A stretch of 39,326 nucleotides of DNA from an uncultured Alphaproteobacteria bacterium. Lineage in GTDB: Bacteria > Pseudomonadota > Alphaproteobacteria > RF32 > CAG-239. The stretch is taken from positions 1-39,326 of the forward strand of contig CALXWB010000013.1 in assembly GCA_944392225.1 (NCBI GenBank), written 5' to 3'. The notes below the pieces were generated by a model that saw only the letters and a list, made by a program, of their open reading frames with translations, was not told the DNA's origin and did no database searches. Positions 8,696 to 15,608 of this stretch are shown one piece after another (positions within the stretch are counted from its first letter, which is position 1; each line of letters begins with the position of its first letter). Both the position numbers and the translations under genes were made by a program.

Positions 8696-8963
8696 TTTCG
8701 GGCATTCGCTTGTTTTTTCCGCAAGTCCACCCTCGCAACATTACCATTAAAAAAAGCCTCCGCAAGGGGTGAGGCAGACAATAGGCAAAAGTAATTGGCT
8801 ATTGTCAACGCAAATTACGCATTTGTTAGCGCGTGAGCAAGTGAAAACAACGCGAAACAAGCGTTACAAAGCGATGCCCGAAACGAGTTGGAAAATGAAA
8901 TGAGCTTACGAGTAAGAGCCTTATTTTAATGGTGCTCTATACTAAAGCAAGTATTGGGCTAAT
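8696..8963. repeat. Islet repeat unit A (distal, degenerate)
   Basis: The right end (8923-8963) aligns with the end of units B and C, from TTTTAATGGTGC to GGGCTAAT, with substitutions. The left part has GCAAGTCC (compare the T-arm motif GCAAGTCCGATT), a minus-strand terminator hairpin GCCTC / GAGGC with a T-tract (8750-8776), and a second hairpin GACAATAG / CTATTGTC (8777-8806). An imperfect inverted repeat, TTTCGGGCATTCGCT versus AGCGATGCCCGAAA, spans nearly the whole left part. The stretch 8826-8920 resembles the sequence after tRNA-Val at the end of the window. The gap 8964-9216 is AT-rich with no gene I can support. Confidence 0.6.
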
Positions 8964-9216
8964 TTAAACAACTTTTCTACAAAATTGAAGCCCTTTATGG
9001 TATTAATGCCAGATAGTTAATTTGTTTGTTTATTGATTTTCGTAAAGTATATTTACAATTTTATCTAACATAATGATTAGAAGAATTTCCAGTGAAAAAG
9101 ATTATAATTATTTTGCTTCTTAATGTTAATGACATCATGCTAAAAATATCAAGGATGAAGTAAAAAGAAATTTTGAACACGATATTTTAATAATTTTATA
9201 CAAAGACATCATAAAA

Positions 9217-9245
9217 TTGACAAAGATCTTTGAATCCTGTATACT
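9217..9245 (+). promoter_or_regulatory. Sigma-70 promoter of cassette 1
   Basis: TTGACA (9217-9222), 17-base spacer, TATACT (9240-9245), 39 bases before the start of the gene at 9284. The cassette therefore carries its own promoter. Confidence 0.75.
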
Positions 9246-9283
9246 AAAAGAAAGGTTAATTTATATCGTCTAGGAGAAAACTT

Positions 9284-9790
9284 ATGGAACAAAATAGTGA
9301 AAGTAAAGTCAAAGCAGATGAATATATAAGTCTGTGTGAACGAAAAGGGATTAATCTATCTTCAGAACAGAAAAAGTATATTTATGAACGATTTAAAAGT
9401 ATGGACGCCACAGCTTCTGATGCTGACTATAATGCACTACAAATAGATATAATAAGGCATCTGGAAAAGCCAATAGAGAAAGAGGAATTTCGAGATAAAG
9501 TTTTGGGAGGACCCAATAGAACCAATCTGGAAAGAATAGCTAAGCTGAAAAAAAGAATTGTCAAATATCCTCAAGATGAAAGTTTTAGAGTTGAGCTACA
9601 AGAAGCTTTGAGTGAAATAAATAAGGCATATGGAAAAGTTAGCCCCGAACTGGCTCGTTTCAGAGAAGAAGAGCTGAAGGAAATAGAGGCAGGTAAAGAT
9701 CCCGCACTTGCCAGAGAAACTAGACGAAAAAAAGTTCAAGCTTACTACCAACTACGAGAGCTTATGGAAAAGGGCTTTGAAAAATTTTAA
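9284..9790 (+). CDS. Charged helical protein of unknown function (cassette 1)
   Basis: 168 residues, very rich in Glu, Lys and Arg, predicted almost all alpha-helical and possibly coiled coil (about residues 90-165, with RFREEELKEIEAGKD and ETRRKKVQAYYQLRELMEK). No signal peptide or TM segment. The start follows CTAGGAGAAAACTT, a strong ribosome binding site, and a consensus promoter lies upstream. It is the only gene in cassette 1. No family is recognised. Confidence 0.75.
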   Translation: MEQNSESKVKADEYISLCERKGINLSSEQKKYIYERFKSMDATASDADYNALQIDIIRHLEKPIEKEEFRDKVLGGPNRTNLERIAKLKKRIVKYPQDESFRVELQEALSEINKAYGKVSPELARFREEELKEIEAGKDPALARETRRKKVQAYYQLRELMEKGFEKF

Positions 9791-10017
9791 TGAGACTCAA
9801 AATGTTATATGACAAACTCCTAGTTACTATCAAATGCAGGCCTTTTTAAAAAATAAATTTTTGTTGAAACTTGTATTTTTGTAAGGTGTTAACAAGAAAA
9901 CAGTGGCTTTTATATCTGCCATTTTATCAGTGGTGTTTATCCACTGGAAAATCATTCAAAAAAACAACCACCATTGCCAAACTCTGCTTGGTTCTGTTGT
10001 CAGACTTGCATTTTCTC

Positions 10018-10124
10018 CCGCAAGTCCGATTACTCTCTAACGATACTTTTAAAACACAAAAACGCCCATCAAGGGCGCTTTTGTGTTTTAATGGTGCGCG
10101 ATACTATGCAATTATCGGACTAAT
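10018..10124. repeat. Islet repeat unit B
   Basis: 107 bases identical to 12020-12126. It runs from CCGCAAGTCCGATTACTC through a near-perfect 17-bp terminator hairpin (10051-10089; AAAACACAAAA and CGCCC arms) to GGTGCGCGATACTATGCAAT and ATTATCGGACTAAT. On the minus strand its end resembles a decayed tRNA-Thr 3' end (AGTCCGAT...CGCACCATT). The neighbouring gap 9791-10017 has a small hairpin (CAGTGG / CCACTG, about 9929-9946) and no gene I can support; 10125-10271 is AT-rich leader. Confidence 0.85.
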
Positions 10125-10271
10125 GATTATGAGGAATTTAAGGAAATTTCACGCAAAATTTTTTTACTTAATGACCTTAGAGACCGTAACTGACAATTAA
10201 AGGTTATTTATTGATTTTTATAAACATATAGCTTAAAGTTATAAAAAAATTACTTAAATATTGAGGTTGCT

Positions 10272-10625
10272 ATGAAAAAATTTGGAATATTTTTACTAGG
10301 TTTCATTTGTGGTATTGCATTTATATTCATTATTGGTGCATTAGCAAATAATAATAGTGGATTAGTTTTATTTGAGAAAGAAGGAAAATGTTTTCACACC
10401 AATAAATTAGAAGTTTTTCAAGCAATAAGCCCAGGAGAAGCGTTAGCTAGGATAGGAAAATTTCCTGATGAAACAATTGTGTTTTTGCTAGATGAAAGTG
10501 AAAAATCCTATTACGATGGTGAAATAATATCTGTCCCGAAGGATAAGTGTCCTAAACAAATAGGAACATTCCAATATGAGACAAAATTTGGAATGAGAAC
10601 TGTTCCCGCGGTAATAATTGAATGA
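10272..10625 (+). CDS. Small membrane-anchored protein (cassette 2)
   Basis: 117 residues beginning MKKFGIFLLGFICGIAFIFIIG, a single TM segment or uncleaved signal (residues 4-25). The soluble part of about 90 residues has two Cys and a short Asp/Glu-rich stretch. The ATG follows TTGAGGTTGCT. Its 3' end abuts the ribosome binding site of the HNH gene (stop at 10623-10625, next ATG at 10633), so the two are probably co-translated. A role with the nuclease, such as immunity or localisation, would be speculation. Not recognised. Confidence 0.75.
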   Translation: MKKFGIFLLGFICGIAFIFIIGALANNNSGLVLFEKEGKCFHTNKLEVFQAISPGEALARIGKFPDETIVFLLDESEKSYYDGEIISVPKDKCPKQIGTFQYETKFGMRTVPAVIIE

Positions 10626-10632
10626 GGAATTG

Positions 10633-11700
10633 ATGTTTGGCACAGACGAATATTATAATGAAGAAAAACAATGCATTTATAAGAATGAAACATATCTTGT
10701 CCGAAATAATGGTGCCGTTTTAAGATATCCAAAAGATACAAATAAAATTCGCCCATTAGATAATAAATGGACTTTTGGGAAACTTGGAGATAAAGGATAT
10801 TTATATATTGCAGGTGTACAGATACATCGTATTGTTGCTACAGCATTTCATGGAGAATCTCCCTCATCTCAACATATTGTAGATCATAAAGATACTAATA
10901 GGCAGAATAACCGTCCTGAAAATTTACATTGGGTCACAAAACTAGAAAATATCCTTAATAATCCAATAACACGAAAACGAATTATTGCTATTTGTGGAAG
11001 CATAGAAGCCTTTTTAGAAAATCCCAATCTTCTAGGTGAAAGCAAACTAGATCCAAACTTTTCTTGGATGCGAAGCGTTACACCTGAAGAAGCCCGAATT
11101 AGTCGTGAAAAACTTGAAGAGTGGGCTAAAAGTGATATTCCATCTTCAGGAGGAAAAATTGGCCAATGGATATATGAAAAACGAATACCAACTCTGAATA
11201 ATAATATGGATAAGTGGAAAAAAATTTGGAAAAGTGAAAAAAACAGCACATTACCAGATGATTTTTTCAAAACAGAATATCAAGAAAATGATAGTGAAGA
11301 AGAAATTTTAGATTATATAGAATCTTTAACAGTAGGTGCAGTGCAAAGAAACTGGCAGACACCTTCAGAATTTCCTTGCTGTCCTACAGAAATTAGCGAC
11401 ACACCGTTAGAGGATTATCTAAAGAATTTACAAATTGGAAAAATATTTAGTAAAAATCAATATGGTCAATCAGAGATTATTAAGTTTGGTTTATCCAAAG
11501 ATAAAAATACTATAGTAGTACAAACGTGTAATGAAAGCGGAGTAAAAAATTTATGTATTGCAAAAATAATCTTTGAAAATAATTTGTTTGTACATATAAA
11601 TGACGGAAGTTATTTTTCAGATGATGGAGCGGACAAGTATTATACTCTAGCACTCGGTGAAGAATGGACAGGTGGTGATGTCTTTGATGATTATTGTTAA
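10633..11700 (+). CDS. HNH endonuclease domain protein (cassette 2)
   Basis: 355 residues. Residues 55-105 hold an HNH_3-type nuclease core: YLYIAGVQIHRIVATAFHG, then DHKDTNRQNNRPENLHWV, with H65, H85, the N92-N93 pair and N97. This pattern is typical of homing-type and phage HNH nucleases. The N-terminal 50 residues resemble the DNA-contacting region before such cores. The roughly 250 C-terminal residues are unrecognised and may recognise DNA. ATG at 10633 is preferred over an earlier TTG because GAGGAATTG precedes it. DNA cutting is inferred from the motif. The gene is AT-rich like the rest of the islet. Confidence 0.85.
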   Translation: MFGTDEYYNEEKQCIYKNETYLVRNNGAVLRYPKDTNKIRPLDNKWTFGKLGDKGYLYIAGVQIHRIVATAFHGESPSSQHIVDHKDTNRQNNRPENLHWVTKLENILNNPITRKRIIAICGSIEAFLENPNLLGESKLDPNFSWMRSVTPEEARISREKLEEWAKSDIPSSGGKIGQWIYEKRIPTLNNNMDKWKKIWKSEKNSTLPDDFFKTEYQENDSEEEILDYIESLTVGAVQRNWQTPSEFPCCPTEISDTPLEDYLKNLQIGKIFSKNQYGQSEIIKFGLSKDKNTIVVQTCNESGVKNLCIAKIIFENNLFVHINDGSYFSDDGADKYYTLALGEEWTGGDVFDDYC

Positions 11701-11802
11701 TTTATCGGACAGGATTTTTATTGAGTAAAATGTTTTATTTTCTTATCTTTTTATTAAAAAGTCCGATAATTTATTAAAATTTGTTCTTTTTAAAATTGCG
11801 CA

Positions 11803-12126
11803 ATCGGACTCTCTGAAAGGCTTGGAATGCATACAAAAAAGCACCTTTAACGGTGCATTATCAAAAATGGTGCCGCTGGCAAAAAGGTAAATTCCCATTG
11901 GCATTAAGCCAACGGGCCCCTTTCGCGCCGTAAGGTTCAAACTTCGTGTTTCGCTAAACGTAAAGTTAAAGCTTAACACTCGTTTTCGCCAACTATCCGC
12001 TCCGCACTTGCTTCTACCCCCGCAAGTCCGATTACTCTCTAACGATACTTTTAAAACACAAAAACGCCCATCAAGGGCGCTTTTGTGTTTTAATGGTGCG
12101 CGATACTATGCAATTATCGGACTAAT
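11803..12126. repeat. Islet repeat unit C
   Basis: The stretch 11841-12099 is identical (259 bases) to 13135-13393, and 12020-12126 is identical to unit B. Order on the plus strand: ATCGGACT (11803); a hairpin GCACC-TTTAAC-GGTGC that is a minus-strand terminator (11834-11856); TGGTGCCGCTGGCAA (11868-11882), a 15-base copy of the tRNA-Thr 3' end; a filler with a hairpin around ATTGGC / GCCAAC; the inverted T-arm motif GCAAGTCCGATT; the strong terminator (12053-12091); and the tRNA-like tail ending ATTATCGGACTAAT. The flanks 11701-11802 and 12127-12207 are AT-rich and empty. Confidence 0.88.
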
Positions 12127-12207
12127 TTTTATGGTGAATTTAAGCTTTTGAGTAGGAAGATTGATATGTTTGAAATGAAAGAATTTGTATAAAAATCAAG
12201 TCTAATA

Positions 12208-12924
12208 CTATTCCTTAAATAAATAATAAATTGGATTTGACATTCCTTTTTTCTTAAAAATATTGTTTTTATTGACATATTGGGGATATTCCTTAGAAAC
12301 ATCATCTCCTTCAAAGAGCCAACGTGTTCTGCCTTTTTCATCAAGTTCAGTTGTCCAAATTTTAGGTTTATATACGGCTCGAAAAATATTATGGTATTCA
12401 CTAATCACAAGCTCAATATTTTTAATCTTATTAGCATTTAATAACCAACTTCTTCTTGTCGCCTCATAAACATTTTGTGCTTTTTTATATGTGTTATTAA
12501 TATTTACAACTAATATATTATGTTTAATATCTTCTTTTGTAATATCTTCTGCACAATAAAAAGCTTCTATCTCTGCAACTGATTTCATTCCATTATCAAG
12601 AGAATGATAACCACCCATAATATTTGATAATTTTCTATTCTCCCATACATCAGAAGAAAATAAATCAATCAACGCAGCTTCAAGATGAAACGCTTCAATT
12701 TCTGTCAAACCATGCCGAATTATATATTTTTCAACTTGTGCACCAGAAGATTTAATATCTGAAATTCTTTTATTTTTCTCATGCTCAGCCATTTCAAGTT
12801 CATGAGCAAAAACTCTATTTCCACAACCTTTACCTATATAAAAGATTGTTTTATCTCTAGAATCTATAAGACAATAAACATAATAACCTATGTTTTCAAT
12901 CGTAGCTTTTGAAAATTCAAACAT
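12208..12924 (-). CDS. LEM-3-like GIY-YIG nuclease (cassette 3)
   Basis: 238 residues. The N-terminal GIY-YIG fold appears as GYYVYCLIDSRDKTIFYIGKG (start at residue 13), then GNRVFAHE, with the likely metal-binding Glu at E82 in HLEAALIDLF. This is the LEM-3-like bacterial branch. The C-terminal half ends KKKGMSNPIYYL, resembling the PUA/EVE-like tail common in that branch (usually ...RGAQNPVRY...). It is a DNA endonuclease by family; the target is unknown. The ATG follows GAGGATGAGTT. It is transcribed opposite to cassettes 1 and 2, in the same sense as tRNA-Thr. Confidence 0.85.
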   Translation of the reverse strand: MFEFSKATIENIGYYVYCLIDSRDKTIFYIGKGCGNRVFAHELEMAEHEKNKRISDIKSSGAQVEKYIIRHGLTEIEAFHLEAALIDLFSSDVWENRKLSNIMGGYHSLDNGMKSVAEIEAFYCAEDITKEDIKHNILVVNINNTYKKAQNVYEATRRSWLLNANKIKNIELVISEYHNIFRAVYKPKIWTTELDEKGRTRWLFEGDDVSKEYPQYVNKNNIFKKKGMSNPIYYLFKE

Positions 12925-13095
12925 AACTCATCCTCTGTGCGTTTTAGAGATATATTAATTAACAAAATGAGAAAATAAAATAAAAATTTCAATTCTATTG
13001 GATAGTTGGTAAAGCTATAAATTGCTTAGTCTTACTCAGATTTATTTTAAAAGTCCGATAATTCTTTTAAAACCTTCAAATTAAAAACATCTGAA

Positions 13096-13393
13096 ATCGG
13101 ACTCTTTGAAAGCCTTAGAAACCATACAAAAAAAGCACCTTTAACGGTGCATTATCAAAAATGGTGCCGCTGGCAAAAAGGTAAATTCCCATTGGCATTA
13201 AGCCAACGGGCCCCTTTCGCGCCGTAAGGTTCAAACTTCGTGTTTCGCTAAACGTAAAGTTAAAGCTTAACACTCGTTTTCGCCAACTATCCGCTCCGCA
13301 CTTGCTTCTACCCCCGCAAGTCCGATTACTCTCTAACGATACTTTTAAAACACAAAAACGCCCATCAAGGGCGCTTTTGTGTTTTAATGGTGC
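13096..13393. repeat. Islet repeat unit D (tRNA-proximal)
   Basis: 259 bases (13135-13393) are identical to 11841-12099. The unit contains the minus-strand terminator GCACC / GGTGC, the 15-base tRNA-Thr 3'-end copy at 13162-13176, the inverted T-arm motif at 13316-13327 and the strong terminator at 13347-13385. It then runs directly into the true tRNA-Thr gene, whereas units B and C continue into a decayed tRNA-like tail. The gap 12925-13095 contains AGTCCGATAAT at 13052-13062 and no gene. Confidence 0.88.
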
Positions 13394-13462
13394 CGCTGGC
13401 AAGAATCGGACTTGCGACCCCGTCATTACCAATGACGTGCTCTACCACTGAGCTACAGCGGC
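13388..13462 (-). tRNA. tRNA-Thr (GGT)
   Basis: On the minus strand: acceptor GCCGCTG / CAGCGGC, D-arm GCTC / GAGC, anticodon stem CGTCA / TGACG around TTGGTAA giving anticodon GGT, T-arm GCAAG-TCCGATT-CTTGC, and an encoded CCA. The T-loop begins TCC rather than the usual TTC. It reads ACC and ACU threonine codons. Its 3' end and terminator are shared with the islet repeat, making this the apparent insertion site. Confidence 0.95.
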
Positions 13463-14741: not shown

Positions 14742-15608
14742 ATGATATGTGATAGAATTATTTTTATGGCCGGAAGCTATTGCACTGCTCATAACGAATT
14801 CGTCCGTGTCCTGCGGCGCAAACGTATTTGTCCTTGTTCAAATGCATATCGCAAAGATGATATGCTTTTTGAAGAAAAATCGCCGAGCGATGTTGCTCCG
14901 GCATATCGCACGGAAGAAGATGCAACAAGCCCTTTTTTTGATGTTCCTGAAGAGGAAACGGAAGAAAAAGCGGGAGATGAGGAATATTCCAAAAATCGTG
15001 ATGGTGATGAAGATTACACCAGCGAGCATTATTGGGACTTTCACGGTGCAGACAACGATGATTCGAGCGACAATGACCGTGATGACGAAGAAGAGCATCA
15101 CGGCTTATTCGACGATGATGATGACCATGATGATGATCACGACGACGAAGAAGATCATCACGGCTTATTCGACGATGATGATGACCATGATGATGATCAC
15201 GACGACGAAGAAGATCATCACGGCTTATTCGACGATGATGATGACCATGACGATGACCGTGATGACGAAGAAGAGCATCACGGCTTATTCGACGATGATG
15301 ATGACCATGATGATGATCACGACGATGAAGAAGAGCATCACGGCTTATTCGACGATGATGATGACCATGACGATGACCGCGATGACGAAGAAGAGCATCA
15401 CGGCTTATTCGACGATGATGATGACCATGACCATGATGATGACTATGATGATCATGATGACGACAATCAAGATGATGATCGTGATGATGACAATCAAGAT
15501 GATGATGATCGTGACGACGATTCTGATGATGATTACGACCACGATGACGACGACGATCGTGATGATTATGATGACGATTATGATGACGATTCAGATGATG
15601 GTTGGTAA
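14742..15608 (+). CDS. Asp/His-rich tandem-repeat acidic protein
   Basis: 288 residues if started at the first ATG; ATG at 14766 (MAGSYCTAH) is equally plausible, and neither has a clear ribosome binding site. The N-terminal 40 residues carry three to four Cys in a basic context (RRKRICPCSNAYRK). The middle is acidic. From about residue 114 come six nearly identical 20-residue units containing HHGLFDDDDDHDDD, followed by about 60 residues of almost pure Asp/His. The composition suggests binding of divalent metals such as Ni, Zn, Cu or Ca; storage, buffering or surface roles are all possible. A strong terminator follows. No homologue is recognised. Confidence 0.75.
   Translation: MICDRIIFMAGSYCTAHNEFVRVLRRKRICPCSNAYRKDDMLFEEKSPSDVAPAYRTEEDATSPFFDVPEEETEEKAGDEEYSKNRDGDEDYTSEHYWDFHGADNDDSSDNDRDDEEEHHGLFDDDDDHDDDHDDEEDHHGLFDDDDDHDDDHDDEEDHHGLFDDDDDHDDDRDDEEEHHGLFDDDDDHDDDHDDEEEHHGLFDDDDDHDDDRDDEEEHHGLFDDDDDHDHDDDYDDHDDDNQDDDRDDDNQDDDDRDDDSDDDYDHDDDDDRDDYDDDYDDDSDDGW
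15081..15430 (+). repeat. Six-fold 60-bp tandem repeat within the Asp/His-rich gene
   Basis: The 60-base period starts at GATGACGAAGAAGAGCATCA and recurs at 15081, 15141, 15201, 15261, 15321 and 15381, with only a few substitutions (GAT/GAG, CAC/CGT). Because 60 is a multiple of three, gain or loss of units keeps the frame. Confidence 0.92.

Follow-up and report, generated by a model that had tools for sequence, protein, structure and literature searches.

What has placed three short, unrelated cassettes, separated by closely similar repeat units, directly behind a single tRNA gene? The question is raised by a tRNA-Thr(GGT) gene (13388..13462, minus strand; detected by ARAGORN and Rfam) of an uncultured alphaproteobacterium, in a stretch of 39,326 nucleotides that is called the window here (GenBank assembly GCA_944392225.1, contig CALXWB010000013.1, positions 1 to 39,326). 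A preliminary description had distinguished four repeat units, from A, farthest from the tRNA, to D, next to it, and had read them as traces of repeated insertion at one site. The repeat units are the joints of a cassette array behind tRNA-Thr(GGT), and we consider it likely that a large serine recombinase (LSR) built this array site-specifically at the 3' end of the tRNA gene.

Read in the tRNA sense, each joint runs from a left part through the hexamer GCACCA into the left end of the cassette that follows. The left part at the tRNA is made up of the T arm and the acceptor strand; within the array it is a conserved sequence that opens with the same box, AGTCCGAT. The tRNA half-site, our proposed attB half-site, has its box at 13405-13412 and its core GCACCA at 13388-13393, with a spacing of 11 nt. 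Joints 1 (12094..12123; box AGTCCGAT at 12116-12123, core GCACCA at 12094-12099) and 2 (10092..10121; box at 10114-10121, core at 10092-10097) are half-sites of the attP type with a spacing of 16 nt. Joint 3 (8930..8960) is a decayed half-site of the same type, with two mismatches in its box AGCCCAAT (8953-8960), which lies 17 nt before GCACCA at 8930-8935. All are on the minus strand, as are the three cassettes that a profile of such joints delimits: cassette 1, nearest the tRNA (12094..13387, 1294 bp), cassette 2 (10092..12093, 2002 bp) and cassette 3 (8930..10091, 1162 bp). The array has a GC content of 32.1% versus 39.9% and 41.5% in its flanks, in keeping with the AT-rich cassettes noted before, and lies between an aldose epimerase gene on the left and the gene for tryptophanyl-tRNA synthetase (TrpRS) on the right.

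The near-identity of the repeat units is real, with slightly longer exact matches than the 259 and 107 bases first given: 265 nt between C and D (from 11835 and 13129) and 108 nt between B and C (from 10017 and 12019). The longest exact match between B and D is 81 nt. Unit A (8696..8929, minus strand), past joint 3, had been called a decayed relative of the others. By eye it is a left end in decay that still shows a hairpin resembling a terminator and a T-arm copy in inverted orientation; its longest exact match to B or C is 12 nt, the maximum also reached among 100 shuffles (12), and by this measure its kinship is not supported. The joint profile does recognize joint 3, that of unit A, at 24.5 bits (E 1.6e-5), an E-value that leans in its favor since joint 3 was among the joints seeding the profile.

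The same architecture recurs in related genomes. The profile, built from 48 joints, was searched against 44 oriented loci, one of which (L070) is a duplicate and does not enter any count. The remaining 43 loci represent 43 genomes of one family of uncultured alphaproteobacteria, namely 42 with full-length tRNA matches in a search of the family and four more of the genus, minus three with the tRNA at a contig edge (G002, G012 and G035); the family search also gave four genomes with partial tRNA matches only and three without any. At a cut-off of 14 bits, 31 of the 43 tRNA-Thr loci contained at least one internal joint. All 64 joints found were on the same strand, and shuffled loci produced 7 hits, the best with 8.6 bits. 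The median cassette measures 1.3 kb.

The distance between box and core distinguishes the joints from the tRNA. It was 11 nt in all 43 tRNAs, while the 64 joints had spacings of 16 (38 joints), 17 (7), 15 (4) or 18 nt (1), with 50 joints in this range, where the seed pattern had permitted 9 to 25. We noticed the difference by eye, then measured the spacing and finally compared it with the rule published for serine integrases: passages of PMC3783163 describe a zinc-ribbon domain that binds positions 16-24 of the attP half-site and 11-19 of the attB half-site, a shift of 5 bp. The measured spacings match this published shift, so that we read the tRNA as an attB half-site and each cassette's distal end as an attP half-site. 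The shift of about 5 bp in the zinc-ribbon motif that is expected of LSR systems is thus found on one half-site of the Thr system.

An enzyme of the corresponding class sits at the same tRNA. In several relatives an LSR gene directly adjoins the tRNA with its own end and takes its last codons from the tRNA itself. Intact LSRs with at least 91% identity were found at tRNA-Thr in seven other genomes (G013, G060, G009, G101, G155, G096 and G091). The G013 protein has the Resolvase, Recombinase and zinc-ribbon domains of an LSR (PF00239, PF07508, PF13408), with the motifs ARVSS at 22 and DRLQR at 93. The element around it further carries genes for a C5 methylase, a HaeII-type endonuclease and a DUF3768 protein, and a Rep match below its cut-off. 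Three of the seven LSR elements, those scanned with the joint profile, 8.4-8.9 kb in size, end in the same attP-like half, and LSR fragments at the tRNA or inside the arrays of other genomes show decay. Judged by domains and by the 5-bp rule, the array fits the serine-integrase class, and an LSR is most likely the recombining agent. As to a carrier of the LSR, we rejected plasmids and phages, records of which matched at less than 60% identity only (best listed 33.5% and 35.4%). In the two best phage-labelled records the LSR runs into tRNA-Leu and tRNA-Glu genes, and for this reason they are probably pieces of chromosome. A degenerate pattern of the attP half had no match in viral contigs. A comparison with solved structures returned three weak matches to RecA constructs, which were not used.

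In our proposal the LSR is encoded by larger elements with the same target and would link circular DNA to tRNA-Thr(GGT) at its 3' end, crossing over within GCACCA, the hexamer that closes the tRNA gene. The attB-type half-site (B) would be that of the tRNA, whose T arm contains box AGTCCGAT at a distance of 11 nt ahead of the core; each element would contribute an attP-type half-site (P), its box lying farther from the core by about 5 bp. The left end of the element would form the second half (Y), with a terminator in most small cassettes, so that the tRNA would stay complete and terminated. Recombination of B/Y at the tRNA with P/Y on the circle would give B/Y at the tRNA again and P/Y at the far end. 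Since only the left half-site would differ between target and element, the target would be renewed and cassettes could stack, the newest next to the tRNA. Ordinary serine integrases leave inert attL and attR, unlike this renewed target. For small cassettes that lack an LSR, the enzyme would have to be supplied in trans.

The left ends of the cassettes conform to their proposed role. A terminator was present in 52 of 64 left ends versus 35 of 2000 draws from cassette interiors, and 5 of the 12 left ends without one are ends of LSR genes. Terminators in most left ends of small cassettes suggest that cassettes bring a terminator for the tRNA they land behind. In the window, a terminator-like hairpin follows GCACCA in all three cassettes, and the second terminators that had been reported for units C and D were also found, further inside the left ends of cassettes 1 and 2.

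If insertion was repeated, relatives should not share one filling, and the same cassettes were indeed not found at fixed, syntenic positions in all of them. Other cassettes occupy the interval from the aldose epimerase gene to TrpRS/tRNA-Thr in G001, G004 and G006, and likewise in G005, with the next gene in the place of TrpRS. In six further genomes of the genus the filling differs or the contig is broken. G016 resembles an unoccupied site: the tRNA and a terminator are present there, and the repeat is absent. Conversely, near-identical cassettes occur in different genera, some of them at differing array positions. Cassette proteins from slot 3 of G043 and slot 4 of G059 are 99.4% identical, and those from slot 2 of both 96.1%; the values are 96.2% for G001 and G068, 97.3% for G008 and G049, and 92.2% for G006 and G045. 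TrpRS identity is 87.9% between G006 and G045, and 83.1% (G001) and 83.8% (G043) to G042, used as a same-genus stand-in for G068 and G059. A GIY-YIG cassette is in slot 1 in the window and in slot 2 in G003 (81% identical). Comparison across relatives thus bears out the view that unrelated cassettes were repeatedly inserted at the tRNA-Thr 3' end.

Several observations weigh against an array made by this LSR. No clear common motif was apparent in the right half-site (Y). Among the 64 joints, 14 lie outside the 15-18 nt range, six without a box, five with more than one core mismatch, one with a spacing of 25 nt and two, in G050 and G045, with the tRNA spacing of 11 nt, from which the other 62 differ. 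Alternatively, the attP-like half might represent a tRNA 3' end that has decayed and contains 5 additional bases. A joint is missing from 12 of the 43 loci, at least six of which are cut by contig ends (less than 5 kb of downstream sequence). At the tRNA-Leu gene that a related LSR uses (see below), the attP-like half shows no 5-bp shift by eye, and viral contigs gave 7 pattern matches and no relative of the LSR. All data are from draft assemblies, in which no circle, excision, activity or movement was seen directly. Finally, the genome of the window (94.9% complete) contains no copy of the tRNA-Thr LSR, its only LSR match being a protein of 36% identity at a tRNA-Leu gene on contig C16. The window cassettes would therefore need an enzyme in trans, or their donor has been lost.

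The missing enzyme lends some weight to a less dynamic view, compatible with an LSR origin and concerned with present activity, in which the array is a fossil of old LSR-made insertions that are fixed and no longer move. The decay of joint 3 and unit A would also fit. We regard such a fossil as rather unlikely, given the 265 bases of identity between C and D, the six other genomes of the genus with their different fillings or broken contigs, and the 96-99% identical cassettes in different genera.

A further view starts from the repeats themselves. The left end of cassette 1 begins with a mini element of 226 nt (13162..13387, minus strand), composed of a palindromic terminator, an inverted T arm, an insert and a copy of the tRNA 3' end; cassette 2 has the same sequence at the start of its left end (11868..12093, minus strand). 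The remainders of the left ends (13052..13161 and 11760..11867, minus strand) contain the second terminator and then an inverted repeat (13096-13103 with 13052-13059, and 11803-11810 with 11760-11767). In more general terms, a mini element is a copy of the tRNA 3' half with the T loop replaced by an insert of about 80-130 nt, behind a palindromic terminator. We extracted 19 at tRNA-Thr, with a pattern that misses some. In the genome of the window a mini element also lies behind tRNA-Gln. G004 has a tandem pair behind its tRNA-Gln, and G010 two copies behind tRNA-Met; those at tRNA-Gln and tRNA-Met (L006, L042, L049) carry the 3' ends of these tRNAs. The core repeat was not found scattered without a link to tRNA genes or cassettes, with the qualification that this mini-element part of the separators is shared with other tRNA genes.

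The 15-base copies of the tRNA 3' end, reported in units C and D and found at 13162-13176 and 11868-11882, besides the tRNA itself, belong to the mini elements and are separate from the recombination joints. The joints are the AGTCCGAT half-site plus GCACCA at 12094-12123 and 10092-10121 and, in decayed form, at 8930-8960. The earlier suggestion that each arrival supplies a tRNA 3' end therefore holds for the last bases, GCACCA, and has to be corrected for the 15-base copies, which come from the mini element. One could still suppose that the mini repeat is the mobile unit, and that the array grew by duplication and by homologous recombination between separators. Its presence behind tRNA-Gln and tRNA-Met and the long identity of C and D would agree with this. 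Yet a mini element was extracted in 17 of the 64 left ends only (the pattern misses some, for example L078), cassettes without it still end in an attP-like half (L095, L088, slots 2 and 3 of L073), and its own distal end has no box at the expected place, as judged by eye. We therefore find this explanation very improbable.

Two features of the left ends are recorded here in their own right. An inverted repeat of about 50 nt, AGTCCGAT...ATCGGACT, lies 60-130 nt inside many cassette left ends (for example 13052-13103 and 11760-11810 in the window), and also occurs within the 3' part of the LSR gene. A conserved RNA fold of the mini element was considered and dropped: RNAalifold gave -10.2 kcal/mol for 19 mini elements versus about 0 for 30 column shuffles, with nearly all pairs in the terminator, and no structured RNA is claimed. 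Tandem repeats that carry a tRNA 3' end behind a tRNA, as the mini element does, are known from the rtT repeats of E. coli tyrT; these are not known to form a cassette array and are set apart by description, not by sequence.

That the cassettes are islands or satellites of tyrosine integrases since lost, each duplicating the tRNA 3' end, is likewise most unlikely: tRNA 3' ends are the usual targets of this class in passages of PMC4701971 and PMC5704250, and tyrosine integrases do occur in this setting (387 aa in G050, in an element in this very tRNA-Thr, and a 579-aa Phage_integrase protein in the G004 array), but the G050 element has a 46-nt tRNA copy, as expected for the class, while all that most array joints share is the box and GCACCA, set 5 bases further apart, and tyrosine integrases make up only these 2 of 115 cargo proteins, away from ends of the joint pattern, while the LSR abuts the tRNA in seven genomes. 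The G050 locus (L087, contig C38) is of separate interest, as its 4.5-kb tyrosine-integrase element in tRNA-Thr lies directly beside an LSR-gene end, with both enzyme classes at one tRNA.

The LSR of the proposed tRNA-Thr array has relatives at other tRNAs. Some LSR match was present in 101 of 154 genomes of the order. From these data we took a non-exhaustive sample of 40 regions, mostly those with the best scores, and 8 loci. In a quick tree of 52 LSRs, 27 end in a tRNA, 25 of them according to ARAGORN; the remaining two are the LSR at a partial tRNA-Leu in the genome of the window and a copy of this type in an array. No tRNA lies within 60 nt of the other 25 LSRs. Targets among the loci examined comprise at least seven types (Thr, Leu, Pro, His, Asp, Glu and Trp). 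In many genomes (L126-L172), LSRs 31-41% identical to the Thr type have genes that run into a tRNA 3' end, that of tRNA-Leu, Pro, His, Asp, Glu or Trp. The tRNA label changes 3 times on the tree versus 17.6 times in shuffles, a comparison for which the program warns of long branches. This group of LSRs thus appears, from its gene positions, to be specialized for tRNA 3' ends.

A sister system is present in the genome of the window itself. The LSR gene on contig C16 (24735-26192 of that contig; L126, L185) belongs to an element of about 15 kb at tRNA-Leu(CAG) and runs into the tRNA 3' end, which is cut by the contig end and was identified by identity with the full tRNA-Leu(CAG) of G004 and G006. 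A distal copy of the tRNA-Leu end, with a different upstream sequence, lies about 15 kb from the LSR; behind it comes a palindromic terminator that resembles the one in the mini element. In G004, two tandem copies of the LSR are located at this tRNA-Leu(CAG). Copies of tRNA tails were sought near the other tRNA-targeting LSRs, with few clear distal ends.

Compared with known systems, the array resembles the staphylococcal and Enterococcus cassette chromosomes (SCC/ECC) in its likely chemistry and integrons in its layout, and by the features tested is a member of neither. Like the array, SCC/ECC include non-autonomous members. Further likenesses, in passages of PMC6222049, are the LSR chemistry (Ccr), a fixed target at the 3' end of a gene (rlmH), extra attR sites in complex elements and variable cargo; the ECC of 21-78 kb described there differ from the median cassette of 1.3 kb. 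The target also differs, the joints here being at a tRNA gene, tRNA-Thr, and not at rlmH. CcrB is the best NCBIfam match of the LSR, with 90 bits versus a cut-off of 900, and does not place it among the Ccr proteins. The array moreover has one orientation and a clear B/P difference at every good joint.

Integrons collect small, promiscuous cassettes, mostly of one or two genes, at a fixed and regenerated landing site, with an enzyme separable from the cassettes. The array appears to share these features of layout and differs in its likely enzyme, a serine and not a tyrosine recombinase, in its landing site, a tRNA 3' end, and in its cargo, which points both ways; the four scanned cargo proteins of the window contained no Phage_integrase match, the IntI-specific model not having been run on the whole genome. 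Tyrosine-integrase islands at tRNA genes, including tycheposons, are alike in inserting behind a tRNA that keeps a complete 3' end. They differ in enzyme class and in a long tRNA repeat in place of the short shared core (as in the contrasting G050 element); no tyrosine integrase was found in the window cargo, and 62 of the 64 joints, without the tRNA spacing, show no long distal repeat of the tRNA 3' end. Integrative mobilizable and integrative conjugative elements with serine integrases in rumA, which have the att site inside the integrase gene, are alike in the overlap of this site with the LSR gene end (passages of PMC4701971), and differ from the array in its undisrupted tRNA 3' end as target and its arrays of non-autonomous cassettes. 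A literature search that left most subscription papers outside its reach returned no description of LSR-driven cassette arrays at tRNA genes, which does not establish their absence from print.

One tRNA-targeting LSR appears to build arrays of small, partly anti-phage cassettes, and serine integrases are known for one-way, single insertions. If true, this would be a second chemistry for cassette arrays, and would suggest how a directional enzyme can reuse one target, with only one half-site differing between target and element. It would also point to an unsampled store of small defense genes and to recombinases with predictable tRNA targets. A possible extension, which we put forward tentatively, is an integron equivalent run by a serine recombinase. 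In it, a self-renewing landing site at the 3' end of tRNA-Thr would correspond to attI, the attP-type half-site of the small cassette to attC, and LSR elements would supply the enzyme in trans, so that these alphaproteobacteria would collect and reshuffle defense and other genes in arrays. The sister LSRs of tRNA-Leu, Glu, Pro, His, Asp and Trp may act likewise at their own targets.

The cargo of the window array includes one predicted defense gene. Cassette 1 encodes a 238-aa LEM-3-like GIY-YIG protein (12208..12924, minus strand; Pfam PF22945, E 3.9e-14) that also matches the PADLOC model PD-T4-3 (E 3e-41) over its full length, with residues 3-236 of 238 aligned to 5-254 of 256. It is thus a predicted anti-phage protein resembling PD-T4-3, which passages of PMC12409345 describe as a single-gene anti-phage system with a GIY-YIG domain. 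Cassette 2 encodes an HNH_3 endonuclease-like protein (10639..11700, plus strand; Pfam PF13392, E 2.3e-18; PADLOC homing endonuclease models, E 2.7e-11) and an open reading frame (ORF) of 117 aa (10272..10625, plus strand), and cassette 3 an ORF of 168 aa (9284..9790, plus strand); the latter two had no match in Pfam, NCBIfam or PADLOC. As the preliminary description had stated, no integrase or transposase is among these four scanned proteins.

For the arrays of all loci, the cargo set comprised 125 ORFs minus 11 short ones, plus the LSR, that is 115 proteins in sets of 72 and 43. Families among the first 25 listed per table include acetyltransferases, GDSL lipases, NUDIX proteins and a phosphotransferase, together with restriction-modification proteins and candidate defense models. 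An unusually composed unit of 8 kb lies at tRNA-Thr in G004 (L104, contig C17), with a KAP/STAND-like NTPase, an Mrr-type nuclease and the 579-aa Phage_integrase protein, and ends in an attP-like joint with a poor core. Elsewhere in the window, at 14742-15608 (plus strand), an ORF of 288 aa contains tandem acidic repeats (DDDHDD...EEHHGLF).

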